Of a stretch of DNA of 64,000 nt, positions 12,134-54,984 are shown piece after piece (the first letter of the stretch is position 1; every line of letters starts with the position of its first letter). The stretch lies in contig JAQWMX010000008.1 in the NCBI GenBank assembly GCA_029246545.1, forward strand, positions 62,001 to 126,000, read 5' to 3'. The translations under genes were made by a program, and so were the position numbers. Source of the stretch: Gammaproteobacteria bacterium (GTDB lineage: Bacteria; Pseudomonadota; Gammaproteobacteria; Pseudomonadales; Pseudohongiellaceae). The notes beneath the pieces are model-generated. The model was not told the origin of the DNA. It ran no database searches and saw only the letters and a program-made list of their open reading frames with translations.

Positions 12134-13129
12134 ATGATGGCTGTTTCAGAATTTGATCTTATTAAAGATTACTTTAATAAACCTGGTTTAACTCCAACAC
12201 CGGAACAGTATGTAAGAATCCCCCTGGGAATTGGCGATGACTGTGCTGTTTTAGACCTTCCCCCAGAAAAGTTTTTAGCAGTCTCAATGGACACTCTTGT
12301 CGCCGATGTGCACTTCCCTACACAGGCTGATCCAAATTTAATTGCCCAGCGTGCTTTAGCAGTTAACTTAAGTGATTTGGCTGCTATGGGTGCTGAACCT
12401 TTGGCATTTACGCTTGCATTAAGTTTGCCTAAAGCTGAAGAGTCATGGCTACAAGGTTTTAGTCTCGGCTTAGAACAAATGATTCAAACATATCATTGTC
12501 CCTTGATCGGTGGTGATATTACCAAAGGGCCCTTAAGTATCACGATTCAAGTGCATGGCCTGCTTGATAAGGGAAAACTGCTCACTCGAAAAGATGCTAA
12601 ACCTGGTGATTTGGTTTATGTATCGGGTGCACTAGGTGCAGCAGGTCTGGCCATTAGTTTAATGAGTAATGGCATGTCTTTAGATAAGCCCGATACTAAA
12701 GAACTTCAAGCTGCTTACTATCAACCTCTTCCAAGAATAACCCTAGGGCAAAGTATTGTGGGACTTGCTTCAGCAGCTATAGATATTTCTGATGGCTTAA
12801 TGGCTGATCTTGGTCACATCGCACAACAAAGCAGTGTTGGTATAGAGCTAAACGCAAAGGCTATACCTATAGCTTTAGTTGTAAAAAAATTTATGAGTAC
12901 AATGGGTGATAAAACTAAAGGTTTGAATTTAGCTTTAACGGCTGGCGATGAGTATGAATTGGCACTAACTGTTGCAGAAGATCAACAAGAAGAATTTCTA
13001 AAAACGACAGCGAAACTTGATGTGCCTTTAACGCTAATTGGTCGTGTTGTTAAAGGAAGTCGAGTTAAATGTTTAGATAATGATGGTCATGAAATTGAGA
13101 TAAAGACCTTCGGATATCGTCATTTTTAA
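12134..13129 (+). CDS. thiL: Thiamine-monophosphate kinase
   Basis: Phosphorylates thiamine monophosphate to the active cofactor thiamine pyrophosphate using ATP. The 331 residues belong to the PurM/ThiL fold: GIGDDCAVL near residue 33, MDTLVADVHF, QRALAVNLSDLAAMGA, GGDITKGPLSITI, AIDISDGLMADLGHI and LTAGDEYEL. The metal-binding aspartates in these segments are all present. The start has two consecutive ATGs (12134 and 12137) behind GAGAGG. The usual downstream neighbour pgpA is here displaced by about 3.5 kb carrying a small ORF and an ABC-2 exporter. Confidence 0.95.
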   Translation: MMAVSEFDLIKDYFNKPGLTPTPEQYVRIPLGIGDDCAVLDLPPEKFLAVSMDTLVADVHFPTQADPNLIAQRALAVNLSDLAAMGAEPLAFTLALSLPKAEESWLQGFSLGLEQMIQTYHCPLIGGDITKGPLSITIQVHGLLDKGKLLTRKDAKPGDLVYVSGALGAAGLAISLMSNGMSLDKPDTKELQAAYYQPLPRITLGQSIVGLASAAIDISDGLMADLGHIAQQSSVGIELNAKAIPIALVVKKFMSTMGDKTKGLNLALTAGDEYELALTVAEDQQEEFLKTTAKLDVPLTLIGRVVKGSRVKCLDNDGHEIEIKTFGYRHF

Positions 13130-13170: not shown

Positions 13171-13275
13171 CTAGACTTTGATTTTTCCTGCTACGATCAG
13201 TAATAAAATCAGTATTAAGCCGCCGACTGATATTGCAGCCAAAGTTACACTTAGACCTATTACAAAATTAATCAC
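13171..13275 (-). CDS. Small single-span membrane peptide (34 residues), hypothetical
   Basis: GTG-started frame with GGAG eight bases upstream of the start. After MINFVIG comes one long hydrophobic segment (about residues 4-29, with glycine, serine and isoleucine/leucine) and a basic end (GKIKV), so it should sit in the inner membrane with a cytoplasmic C-terminus. It faces the convergent thiL end. A perfect TTGAT-N4-ATCAA palindrome is centred about 68 bases upstream of its start, which suggests oxygen-responsive expression. I do not recognise the peptide; small membrane subunits of respiratory complexes are of this size, but nothing here shows such a link. Too short for ORF statistics, so it rests on the ribosome site and hydrophobicity. 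Confidence 0.5.
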   Translation of the reverse strand: MINFVIGLSVTLAAISVGGLILILLLIVAGKIKV

Positions 13276-13336
13276 GATAATTGCTCCAATCTTTAGGATA
13301 ATTGTTGAAGCATAGTGGAAGCTCTGTCTTGATATG

Positions 13337-13350
13337 TTGATCCACATCAA
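13337..13350. promoter_or_regulatory. FNR/Anr-type binding site
   Basis: TTGATCCACATCAA matches the FNR/Anr consensus TTGAT-N4-ATCAA at all ten defined positions. It is about 62 bases upstream of the leftward 34-residue ORF and about 300 bases upstream of the rightward HlyD-family gene. If it sits at the usual -41.5, the leftward transcript would begin near 13302 and have a leader of about 27 bases. No matching promoter hexamers were assigned. Confidence 0.6.
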
Positions 13351-13651: not shown

Positions 13652-14584
13652 ATGCATAAAAGCATTATTTTAATACTAGGAATTTTTTTAGCAGCTTGTG
13701 AAGAACCCATTCCCATCGCAGTTGGCTTGCTTGAATCTGACCGTGTTGAAATTGTGGTCGAAAGTTTTGAACCAATTATTTCTATAAATGTTATTGAAGG
13801 TCAGACAGTTGACGCTGGCGATCTTTTATTGATGCAAGATAACACTCGCATTATAGCTAGAGAAGCAGAAGCTAAGGCTTCAATTGCCAGTCTCGAAGCA
13901 ATTCTAGCTGAACAAATAGCGGGTCCCCGGAATGAAGTTATTGAAGCTGCTCGGGCTACACTTCAGGCTGCACAGGTTCAATTTGATATTAACCTTTTGG
14001 AATTAAACAGACTAGAAAGATTGGGAGCAGATGTTGCTACACAGGAAAGGATTGATTTAGCACGCTCTCAACGGGATGCCGCCCAGGCAAACATTGAACA
14101 GACAAGTGCCAGACTAAGGGAATTAGAAGCGGGCACTCGGCTAGAAACTATTGAGCAAACCCGTCAGCAAATTGCAGGAGCCAATGCTCGGCTTGATACA
14201 CTTCTCATTGATAAATCTCGTTTAAACAGCATTGCTCCTGTTAACGCAATTATAGATTCTTTACCTTTTGAGGTTGGAGAGCGCCCTCCAGTCGGAAGTG
14301 TTGTTGCGGTTCTTCTTACAGGAGAGCAACCTTATGCCAGAGTGTATGTACCTGAAGCATTGCGCATTAATGTGAGACCTGGCACACAAGTTAGTATTAG
14401 TATCGATGGCATAGAGATGCCATTTAATGGAACAGTACGACGGATTTCCAGTGAAGCTTCTTTTACTCCATATTTTTCTCTAACAGAAAGCGATCGAGGT
14501 AGGCTCAGTTATCTTGCTGAGATTATCATTGAAACGCAAAGGGAAAGATTGCCTGACGGAGTGCCGGTAGAAGTCATTTTCTAG
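13652..14584 (+). CDS. HlyD-family membrane fusion lipoprotein (YbhG-like)
   Basis: Periplasmic adaptor of an ABC-2 type exporter. The 310 residues start with a lipoprotein signal whose lipobox is LAAC (Cys16), then a half biotinyl-lipoyl domain (ISINVIEGQTVDAGDLLL), a long coiled-coil hairpin rich in Ala, Glu, Gln and Arg (about 65-185), and the return lipoyl and beta-barrel segments (INSIAPVNAIIDSLPFEVGERPPVGSVVA, then YARVYVPEALRINVRPGTQV). Having a lipid anchor instead of an N-terminal helix is unusual but known for this branch. The ATPase gene follows after 11 bases and the permease overlaps that, so the three form one unit. The substrate is unknown. Confidence 0.85.
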   Translation: MHKSIILILGIFLAACEEPIPIAVGLLESDRVEIVVESFEPIISINVIEGQTVDAGDLLLMQDNTRIIAREAEAKASIASLEAILAEQIAGPRNEVIEAARATLQAAQVQFDINLLELNRLERLGADVATQERIDLARSQRDAAQANIEQTSARLRELEAGTRLETIEQTRQQIAGANARLDTLLIDKSRLNSIAPVNAIIDSLPFEVGERPPVGSVVAVLLTGEQPYARVYVPEALRINVRPGTQVSISIDGIEMPFNGTVRRISSEASFTPYFSLTESDRGRLSYLAEIIIETQRERLPDGVPVEVIF

Positions 14585-14595
14585 CCGACTTTATT

Positions 14596-15561
14596 TTGAA
14601 TTCAGAAAAAGAAAAATATGCAATTACGGCAACCGGTCTTAGTCGCCGTTTTGGTGATTTGTTTGCTGTAAATAATATTGATTTAAAAATTCCGACAGGT
14701 TCTATTTATGGATTTCTTGGCCCGAATGGTTCTGGTAAATCAACAACTATTCGAATGTTGTGTGGCTTGCTAATTCCGACATCAGGAACTGTAGAAGTGT
14801 TGGGTTTACAAATTCCTAAACAAGCAGAAATATTAAAAAATCAAATCGGTTATATGACACAGAAGTTTTCACTTTATGATGACTTAACAGTCAAAGAAAA
14901 TCTTTCTTTTGTTGGTGAGATCTACGCCATTCCCCGTAAACAAAGAAAACTACGAGTAAATGAATTACTAGAAGAGTTCGAACTTTTAGATCGGGCTAAA
15001 CAACGCGCAGGAACGCTTAGTGGTGGGCAGCGTCAGCGCTTAGCTCTAGCAGCTGCAATCTTACATAAACCAAGTTTGCTTTTATTAGACGAGCCAACAA
15101 GTGCCGTTGATCCACAAAATCGCCGAGACTTTTGGGCAACTTTGTTTGTTTTAGCTGAGCAGGGGACAACTATTTTGGTTTCAACCCATTACATGGATGA
15201 GGCTGAACGATGTCACCGTCTGGCTATATTGGATGAAGGTGTCATAGTCGCGGATAATTCACCTAAAAAATTGGGTGAGAATATAGACATGAATGTTTAC
15301 GAAGTTATCACTGAAAAAACCAATGAAGCGAGAGTTGCTTTATCAAATATATCTGAAGTATTCAGTGTGACTCAAGTGGGGCTGCATTTACGAGTACTAT
15401 TACCAAAATCAGTACCTGATTCATTACAAAAAGTAGAAGCAGTACTACAAAGTAATGATTTAACAGGAAGAGTTACTGCAATTGAACCTAACTTGGAAGA
15501 TGTATTTGTTGCAGTTACAGAAAAACACAGACAAGAAGAAAGACAGGAAGTCATCTCATGA
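14596..15561 (+). CDS. ABC transporter ATP-binding protein (exporter, YbhF-half type)
   Basis: ATPase that powers the neighbouring ABC-2 permease. The 321 residues have the full ABC module: A-loop Phe region (LSRRFGDLFAV), Walker A GPNGSGKST (about 42-50), Q-loop MTQKFSLY, signature LSGGQRQRLALAAAI, Walker B LLLLDEPTSAVDP and H-loop VSTHYMDEAERC, followed by a C-terminal extension of about 90 residues typical of drug- and lipid-export ATPases. The start is TTG at 14596; no ATG lies upstream of the conserved region. Its last four bases (ATGA) overlap the permease start, which indicates coupled translation. Confidence 0.88.
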   Translation: MNSEKEKYAITATGLSRRFGDLFAVNNIDLKIPTGSIYGFLGPNGSGKSTTIRMLCGLLIPTSGTVEVLGLQIPKQAEILKNQIGYMTQKFSLYDDLTVKENLSFVGEIYAIPRKQRKLRVNELLEEFELLDRAKQRAGTLSGGQRQRLALAAAILHKPSLLLLDEPTSAVDPQNRRDFWATLFVLAEQGTTILVSTHYMDEAERCHRLAILDEGVIVADNSPKKLGENIDMNVYEVITEKTNEARVALSNISEVFSVTQVGLHLRVLLPKSVPDSLQKVEAVLQSNDLTGRVTAIEPNLEDVFVAVTEKHRQEERQEVIS

Positions 15562-16655
15562 AATCCTTACTGCGACTCTACGCTATTTTTCATAAAGAAT
15601 TTACGCAGCTGATGCGAGATAGGCTGACTTTTGGCATGATAGCTGGTATTCCTTTGATTCAATTAGTGCTGTTCGGATATGCAATTAATACTGATGTACG
15701 AAATCTAACAGCTGCCTTAGTTGACCAAGCTGGAACCTCAATGTCACGTCAAATGGTGAGTGATATGGGCGCATCTCAAGTGGTGGATTTTCAGTATCAG
15801 TTGGCAACTGTTGAAGAATTAACAACATTGATGGATGCTGGGAAAATTTCTATCGGTTTGGTCATCCCACCAGATTTTGATCGCCGTGTATTGAGTGGCG
15901 ATCGGGCAGCAGCACAGATATTGGTAGATGGAACTGATCCCATTATACTGGGAGTTGGTAGGCAGTTAGCGAGTATTCCGGTTAACTTTGATAGCCCGAG
16001 AAGGTTACAAACACCTGCAGGTTTAGAGGTCAGAAATTTTTATAATCCAGAGCGGCGTTCAGCCGTTAATATTGTGCCGGGTTTAATAGGTGTCATTTTA
16101 ACTATGACAATGGCCTTATTTACTGCAGTTGCTATAGTTCGAGAAAAAGAACGTGGCAATATGGAGTTTTTGATAACTACACCTGTTAAACCGTTGGAAT
16201 TGATGTTGGGGAAAATATTACCTTATGTCGCAATTGGTTTTATTCAGGTCAGTCTTATCTTATTGCTCGGTTGGATTTTATTTAGTGTGCCGATACAGGG
16301 AAAGTTGAGTGATGTATATTTGGCAGCATTAGTCTTTATAGCAGCAAATCTTGCACTGGGTTTATTTATTTCAACTTCTGCAAAAACTCAGTTTCAGGCT
16401 ATGCAAATGACTTTTTTCTTTTTCTTACCTTCTATCTTGCTCTCTGGTTTCATGTTCCCATTTGACGGCATGCCAAAAGCTGCTCAGTTCATTGCCGAAG
16501 TACTTCCTTTAACGCATTTTAATCGTATTATCAGAAACATAATGTTGCGAGGTACTGAATTAGATTTCTTGAGTACAGATATGTTGGCACTGATTGGATT
16601 TGCTTTCGTGGCCTTAAGTATTGCTATATTACGGTTTAACAAACGGTTGGATTGA
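15558..16655 (+). CDS. ABC-2 type exporter permease (YbhR/YbhS-like)
   Basis: Membrane subunit of the exporter. The 365 residues show one N-terminal helix (about 22-42, after FHKEFTQLMRDRLTFG), a large periplasmic domain (about 45-170) and then five hydrophobic helices between about 172 and 358, with the family signature around EKERGNMEFLITTPVKPLELMLGK and LPSILLSGFMFPFDGMP. This is the YhhJ/YbhR architecture. One permease gene suggests a homodimer. It is coupled to the ATPase gene by an ATGA overlap and its stop codon lies two bases before the pgpA start. Substrate not predictable. Confidence 0.88.
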   Translation: MKSLLRLYAIFHKEFTQLMRDRLTFGMIAGIPLIQLVLFGYAINTDVRNLTAALVDQAGTSMSRQMVSDMGASQVVDFQYQLATVEELTTLMDAGKISIGLVIPPDFDRRVLSGDRAAAQILVDGTDPIILGVGRQLASIPVNFDSPRRLQTPAGLEVRNFYNPERRSAVNIVPGLIGVILTMTMALFTAVAIVREKERGNMEFLITTPVKPLELMLGKILPYVAIGFIQVSLILLLGWILFSVPIQGKLSDVYLAALVFIAANLALGLFISTSAKTQFQAMQMTFFFFLPSILLSGFMFPFDGMPKAAQFIAEVLPLTHFNRIIRNIMLRGTELDFLSTDMLALIGFAFVALSIAILRFNKRLD

Positions 16656-53835: not shown

Positions 53836-54984
53836 ATGTCTGCCGTTGGTATTCCAAGACGCTCTGTTTTAAGCCTCGCATTATTACTTGCTGCTGAGCC
53901 TGCATTTTCTAATTTTAATGAATCGTCTTCCTCAGTTTTTTTAAGCGCTGCTTCTGATAGTGATGAGAGGCATTGGCTTAAGGCTTTTACTATTGATAAT
54001 GATCAAATCAAAGAGCTTTATAGTCATCAGCTTAGTGCTCGTGCCCATGATGTTGTGATAAATAATATGTCAGATTTATTTGTATGTGTAGCACGTCGGC
54101 CAGGTAAATTTTTATTAATAGGCGATGTGAGTAGTGGAAATATTTTGCAAGAAATTGAAGCAATAGAAGGTAGACATTTTTATGGTCATGGCGTGTTTTC
54201 TGCAGATGATGAATATTTTTATACCACTGAAAGTGTTTATGAGGACCAGCAAGGAGACAATGGCTGTATAGGCGTCTGGCGGGTGAGTCGAGCTTTAACG
54301 GATGCATCACTTGAGCGTGTTAATGAGTTTCCTACCTATGGAGTTGGACCACATGAAGTATTGCTTATGCCAGATCAGGGAACCTTGGTAATTGCTAATG
54401 GTGGTATTCGTACGCATCCTGACTTTGAACGCGAAAAACTCAATATTGATTCTATGCAGCCTTCTTTAAGCTATATTAATAGAGAGACTGGAACTCTTTT
54501 AGAACAACAGTATTTACCTGTTGAGTATCATCAGGCCAGCATTCGGCATATGGATATTAATACTAGCGGGCAGTTGGCTATTGCAATGCAATTTGAAGGC
54601 GAACCTTTTTTAAGAGTGCCATTATTAGCTACACATCAACGAGGTGAAGCTATTCGTCTAATGCTGGCGCCTGAACAAGTTCAATCGCAACTGGAACAAT
54701 ACGTCGGATCTATCCGCTATGATGAAAGCGGCCGCTTTTTAGTAGCCTCATGTCCGCGTGCAAATGTTCTGACCTTTTGGGACGCTGAAAGTGGAGAATT
54801 TCTGAAGCAGCTTAGAGCAAGAGATGCCTGTGGCGTTAGTGCTTATAAAGACGGCTTCATATATAGCGCCGGCACCGGACAGATTCGATATTATGATTTA
54901 ACTCAACAAGCCATCACTAATTTTACAACCCAGAATGAATTCTCCAATGGTTTATTTTGGGATAATCATTTAGCGGTGATCTAG
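53836..54984 (+). CDS. DUF1513 family periplasmic beta-propeller-like protein
   Basis: 382 residues from ATG 53836. The N-terminus has a twin arginine (PRRSVLSLALLLAA) resembling a Tat signal, consistent with other DUF1513 proteins that are exported folded. The body consists of beta-rich repeats: AFTIDNDQIKELYSHQLSARAHDV, LFVCVARRPGKFLLIGDVSSG, EVLLMPDQGTLVIANGGIRTHPDF (each in part), and ISRHMDINTSGQL-like RHMDIN. This protein is a constant member of imelysin operons in Proteobacteria. Function unknown; an iron-binding or protein-docking role is a guess. Confidence 0.82.
   Translation: MSAVGIPRRSVLSLALLLAAEPAFSNFNESSSSVFLSAASDSDERHWLKAFTIDNDQIKELYSHQLSARAHDVVINNMSDLFVCVARRPGKFLLIGDVSSGNILQEIEAIEGRHFYGHGVFSADDEYFYTTESVYEDQQGDNGCIGVWRVSRALTDASLERVNEFPTYGVGPHEVLLMPDQGTLVIANGGIRTHPDFEREKLNIDSMQPSLSYINRETGTLLEQQYLPVEYHQASIRHMDINTSGQLAIAMQFEGEPFLRVPLLATHQRGEAIRLMLAPEQVQSQLEQYVGSIRYDESGRFLVASCPRANVLTFWDAESGEFLKQLRARDACGVSAYKDGFIYSAGTGQIRYYDLTQQAITNFTTQNEFSNGLFWDNHLAVI

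Follow-up and report, generated by a model that had tools for sequence, protein, structure and literature searches.

Does a perfect FNR/Anr box standing ahead of a very short open reading frame mark a true oxygen-controlled gene and, if so, on what might its product act? The question is raised by a locus in the contig stretch analysed here (64,000 nucleotides, hereafter the window). The reading that we prefer, with a probability of roughly 50%, is that FNR activates a stand-alone gene whose micropeptide product acts on the respiratory membrane.

The peptide frame and its FNR box

Positions 13337-13350 of the window read TTGATCCACATCAA, which on the minus strand (13350-13337) corresponds to TTGATGTGGATCAA. 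This palindrome matches the FNR/Anr consensus at 10/10 positions, as the initial annotation had stated; the FNR consensus TTGATNNNNATCAA doubles as the Anr motif (PMC6588701, in excerpt). On the same strand, a frame (13171..13275) starts with GTG at 13275, continues for 33 further codons and ends with a TAG stop codon (13173-13171), encoding a 34-residue single-span membrane peptide, VINFVIGLSVTLAAISVGGLILILLLIVAGKIKV. A ribosome-binding GGAG (13284..13287, minus strand) lies 8 bases ahead of the GTG, and the box-to-GTG distance is 61 bases, in agreement with the arrangement of box, GGAG, GTG frame and one hydrophobic helix described earlier. The helix itself is borne out by an AlphaFold model of the single sequence, which consists of one helix spanning residues 2-33 (mean pLDDT 90.6), and by a best 19-residue Kyte-Doolittle mean of 2.88. 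Reading back from the GTG, no stop interrupts the frame as far as a TTG within the box (59 aa), but the predicted transcript start, 13302, is downstream of this TTG. The flanking genes, named by eye, are a convergent thiL (12134-13129, plus strand) and, from 13652 on the plus strand, an operon of HlyD, ABC ATPase and ABC-2 permease genes (13652-16655).

Neither Pfam nor NCBIfam gave anything meaningful when scanned with the peptide alone, with the 59-aa frame or with 11 family members; the best rows were DUF6524 (E 0.016, 59-aa frame only) and, for one member each, a sortase-signal model (E 0.012), SecDF (E 0.025) and COX14 (E 3.9). The PDB, searched with the single sequence and with the 11-member profile, returned no relevant match, and no paper recognisably about the peptide was found in the open-licence PMC literature.

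Taken alone, the box says little. The window contains 10 sites with up to one mismatch versus 6.1 expected, and the genome 15 perfect boxes versus 9 for a reversed control pattern, so that the box on its own is hardly beyond chance and is weak evidence. Its layout is another matter. In class II FNR-dependent promoters, the site is centred 41.5 bases ahead of the start and the -10 element spans -12 to -7 (PMC7349173, in excerpt), so that a -10 hexamer is expected 22 bases past the box. At the window locus the hexamer TATGCT (13309..13314, minus strand, 4/6 matches) is found exactly there, and the same geometry predicts a transcript start at 13302, 41.5 bases off the box centre; the leftward start near 13302 proposed earlier therefore fits a class II FNR promoter. 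Nine of the 15 perfect genomic sites sit within predicted ORFs, and only two (that of the window and C11:66123) both avoid ORFs and have, 22 bases on, a -10 matching at 4/6 positions or better. Unlike the bare frequency of the box, this layout exceeds chance.

As for the other perfect sites, the C11:66123 box (L157, 1504-1517) has a TATAAT (6/6) at 22 bases, and the TATAAT side runs antisense to a short aldehyde-dehydrogenase-like frame (by eye). A second perfect FNR-type palindrome of the window (53993-54006) falls within a 382-residue ORF, has no -10 at 22 bases and is probably due to chance. No clear FNR regulon emerged from the remaining perfect boxes of the genome.

The check for an fnr/anr gene recommended at the outset was positive: the genome encodes an FNR of 240 aa with the cysteine motif CTNCNLRGLC, scoring 283.9 bits against NCBIfam PRK11161 (cut-off 228). 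A second CRP-type HTH match is present in a shorter frame of the same genome. A TTGATNNNNATCAA-type box, a -10 at 22 bases and an FNR gene in the genome are found together, as would be expected of a class II FNR promoter. The box/-10 geometry is the same as in the class II FNR promoters of E. coli and of cld of Ideonella dechloratans, and only the target gene is new here. It is very probable that FNR activates the peptide gene.

The palindromic box, which is symmetric and lies 302 bases ahead of the HlyD/ABC operon, might instead serve that plus-strand operon. However, the hexamer at 22 bases on that side is GTGCCG (0/6); moreover, the relative G004, which retains the window box letter for letter, has box and peptide but no complete operon between thiL and pgpA, and in other genomes the box tracks the peptide and not the operon. 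We consider this assignment extremely improbable. In G004, the stretch ahead of the box still resembles the end of the permease gene (by eye).

Conservation of frame, box and promoter layout

Searches began with the peptide itself and continued with growing profiles, covering 57 relatives, 137 genomes of the family, 390 of the order, 369 of the class, and 150 and then 206 genomes of family f40. Once partial and in-gene matches had been dropped, 25 loci encoding 31-38 residues were kept: nine in the family of the window (9/137 genomes), 13 in 12/206 f40 genomes, two in G197 and one in G674. The first family search (E up to 1) matched 42/137 genomes, nine of which survived; among the rows dropped were those of G070 (a frame of 29 residues that lacks the C-terminal motif) and G090 (within a 285-aa frame), as was the G042 row (within a 424-aa frame) in the search of 57 relatives. 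The order searches matched 22 and 40 of 390 genomes, mostly with partial or in-gene rows that were discarded, and 11 of the 13 matching genomes of the class search gave only partial or larger-frame matches, likewise discarded. The record L122 (CAMDML010000017.1), titled Klebsiella pneumoniae, groups with genome G020 of this uncultured family, and its title probably reflects a mislabelled metagenome assembly. The isolate name SI072 of one relative apparently points to an origin in Saanich Inlet, which is oxygen-poor.

The peptides share a conserved C-terminal GKIxV end; both G886 copies have a longer, divergent C-terminus, and the second G197 copy runs out into N-containing sequence. The pN/pS ratio is 0.36 (G000/G004), 0.22, 0.34, 0.20 and 0.22 in five of the six pairs compared, three of the six sharing members; in the remaining pair (G907/G981) it is 1.01, and the C-terminus there is without the GKI motif. 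The frame keeps its start, stop and length even though, beyond the box, the DNA of these loci has diverged. Translation of the peptide thus seems highly likely.

The same data bear on the possibility that the FNR-controlled product is a small RNA and the frame incidental. The unit is short and stands alone, and several relatives have terminators, all of which would suit such an RNA; the terminators also count in favour of a stand-alone micropeptide gene. Among the 15 boxed loci, a terminator-like hairpin with a T run follows the stop in G021, G026 and G981 (matched by 0/200 shuffles) and in G005 (1/200); the G012 hairpin reaches -22.2 kcal/mol, yet 34/200 shuffles score as well, and no terminator was found past the peptide stop at the window locus. 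Nevertheless, the mostly synonymous changes in five of the six pairs and a frame kept intact despite the diverged DNA argue against an RNA function, which we regard as very unlikely.

An upstream FNR box with 0-1 mismatches accompanies 12/25 peptide loci, 3/25 have one with two mismatches and 10/25 have none. In the family of the window plus G197, the box is present upstream of all ten first-copy loci (eight perfect, two with one mismatch) and starts 92-137 bases ahead of the matched start. The G907 and G981 boxes carry one mismatch and those of G902, G1046 and G1048 two. The background probability of a box with 0-1 mismatches is 0.009 per 81-base slot, as measured on 31 stretches that include peptide loci and overlap in one case. 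The binomial probability for 12/25 is 1.5e-18 if the loci are treated as independent, which they are not; by genus, 5/12 are boxed (P ~5e-8, genera treated as independent). The initial annotation had proposed looking for box and ORF together in relatives and had named the absence of conservation of either element as one possible refutation; the pair is kept together, so that this objection falls. That box and frame both arose by chance, a view to which the near-background number of perfect boxes in the genome lends some colour, is contradicted by this joint conservation and seems exceedingly improbable. A conserved, FNR-wired micropeptide gene appears, on these sequence comparisons, well supported.

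The promoter layout is shared as well. The 22-base spacing was first spotted by eye and then tested on 13 boxed loci, namely the 12 loci with a 0-1 mismatch box and G902; G1046 and G1048 were left out, and both carry TAGGCT at the same 22-base place (by eye). A -10-like hexamer (3-5 of 6) occurs exactly 22 bases past the box in 13/13 loci, with a mean of 4.23/6 matches, a score reached by 0/2000 shuffles; no other spacer in the range 5-44 exceeds 2.69. The hexamer has T at position 1 in 13/13 loci, A at position 2 in 10/13 and T at position 6 in 12/13.

A FastTree phylogeny of the 25 peptides separates the 15 boxed loci from the 10 unboxed ones (support 0.849), a split that is weak because the peptide sequences are short; the agreement between peptide clade and promoter type favours the preferred reading. 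A TACGTAGATTCCCGGATAG-like element recurs 70-98 bases ahead of the start in eight of the 10 unboxed loci (L071, L133, L136, L137, L149, L150, L151 and L152), or seven genomes, G886 contributing two nearly identical copies, which hints that the sister clade might be under a different regulator. This element was seen by eye before the EM run, in which it scored 200.7 versus 144-160 in 10 mononucleotide shuffles given fewer restarts. It may be a NarL/FixJ-type site.

Gene neighbourhoods and the possible target

Seven of the 15 boxed loci adjoin genes for a caa3 oxidase or its accessory proteins; four, that of the window included, do not, and four (G197, G902, G1046 and G1048) lie on pieces too short to judge. 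In the four genomes of genus g2 (G021, G026, G005 and G012) the peptide unit is located between coxIV and SURF1, and in G025 it comes after CtaB-SURF1, on the strand of those genes. Two further loci, G981 and G907, have the peptide gene divergent from genes for an AHGS-type protein, a small secreted protein and a MauG-like peroxidase; by eye, these three are similar to genes that the window's genome carries in its caa3 region; coxIV and coxIII are about 5 kb from the peptide in G981, and G907 is linked to accessory genes only. In G000, G004, G016 and G020 the caa3 cluster is located elsewhere, not beside the peptide gene. The oxidase is of the caa3 type, having a subunit II with cytochrome c domains, two COX3 proteins and one COX4_pro.

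Co-transcription with SURF1 in genus g2 was considered and is unlikely, as at least three of the four loci, those of G021, G026 and G005, have the terminator-like hairpin between the two genes. Two further observations concern the oxidases of the window's own genome. Its caa3 region has consecutive genes for two distinct COX3-family proteins (L108, 6466-7801), and C17 (L120, 4981-7653) encodes an 890-residue chain matching CcoN, CcoO and, weakly, CcoP, apparently a fused cbb3-like oxidase.

In 20 chosen genomes, the oxidase was present in 12/12 of those with the peptide versus 4/8 of the others, but this co-occurrence vanished family-wide: caa3 subunit I is found in 108/137 genomes and the peptide in nine, all within the 108, which is not significant. 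Since most caa3-bearing genomes of the family are without a detectable peptide, the latter cannot be an obligatory subunit. The linkage to caa3 genes in several relatives nonetheless makes it plausible that the peptide tunes a respiratory enzyme. As to the oxygen-controlled small protein originally suggested, the oxygen control is favoured by the FNR gene, the joint conservation of box and ORF and the class II position, whereas for a respiratory role it counts against the suggestion that in its own genome the peptide gene stands beside no oxidase gene.

The main rival is an FNR-controlled peptide that belongs to a general stress response to microaerobic conditions and has the membrane or a transporter, not an oxidase, as its target. 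The neighbours of the f40 loci are often universal-stress (G405, G886, G902, G1046 and G1048), CBS-domain (G902 and G907) or antiporter (G405 and G907) genes (named by eye), some of them with FNR boxes of their own, and the sporadic distribution (9/137 and 12/206 genomes) would also be in keeping with such a role. It leaves unexplained, however, the repeated adjacency to caa3 genes in three lineages, and we hold it to be possible but rather unlikely.

Under the preferred reading, that of an FNR-activated micropeptide of the respiratory membrane, falling oxygen would lead the iron-sulfur regulator FNR to bind at 13337-13350, from where, as a class II activator, it would switch on a short leftward transcript starting at about 13302. 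The transcript would encode a single-span inner-membrane peptide of 31-34 residues with the conserved GKIxV end, which would most likely bind a respiratory membrane complex at low oxygen. The odds that the target is respiratory are about even. The leading candidate would be the caa3-type cytochrome c oxidase or its assembly, by analogy with the small subunits CcoM (cbb3) and CydX (bd); the choice of this specific target is a guess, and a tentative one. Still more doubtful is the widest form of the proposal, namely a new family of 31-34-residue membrane peptides that some Gammaproteobacteria would turn on via FNR at low oxygen so as to remodel the caa3 oxidase, or else the assembly of this oxidase by SURF1, with a sister clade under a different regulator.

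The gene at this locus, conserved and regulated but of a size that the usual family libraries miss, was discovered via its promoter, and the combination of a class II FNR promoter with a short hydrophobic ORF might offer a route for finding micropeptides. Should the caa3 oxidase prove to be tuned by the peptide, the latter would provide a direct handle on the low-oxygen adjustment of a heme-copper oxidase in aerobic bacteria.

Comparison with known small oxidase proteins

CcoM is a single-span helix; its oxidase is of the cbb3 type, whereas the one adjoining the peptide loci is of the caa3 type. The PDB search with the single peptide and the 11-member profile (E up to 10) returned no chain that could be CcoM, a 34-residue query being low-powered and run without a CcoM control. 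The likeness lies in size and in the link to oxygen-limited respiration, CcoM, with its 36 residues, being a subunit of the Pseudomonas stutzeri cbb3 oxidase (PMC10433244, in excerpt).

A second term of comparison is subunit IIa, an extra subunit of the B-type (ba3) heme-copper oxidases (PMC3128077, in excerpt). The peptide has no PDB match, and the oxidase here is caa3-type and not ba3. What the two have in common is that subunit IIa of the ba3 oxidases, too, is small and single-span.

Finally, the 11 members gave no row for the CydX (ybgT_yccB) model in Pfam at E up to 5, their sole row being that of COX14, and no cydAB genes stood beside the peptide among the loci read (gene names by eye). 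Nevertheless, CydX, CydY and CydZ of cytochrome bd resemble the peptide in size, in having one hydrophobic helix and in being small proteins encoded near oxidase genes; moreover, orphan cydX genes located apart from cydAB exist (PMC4325964, in excerpt).
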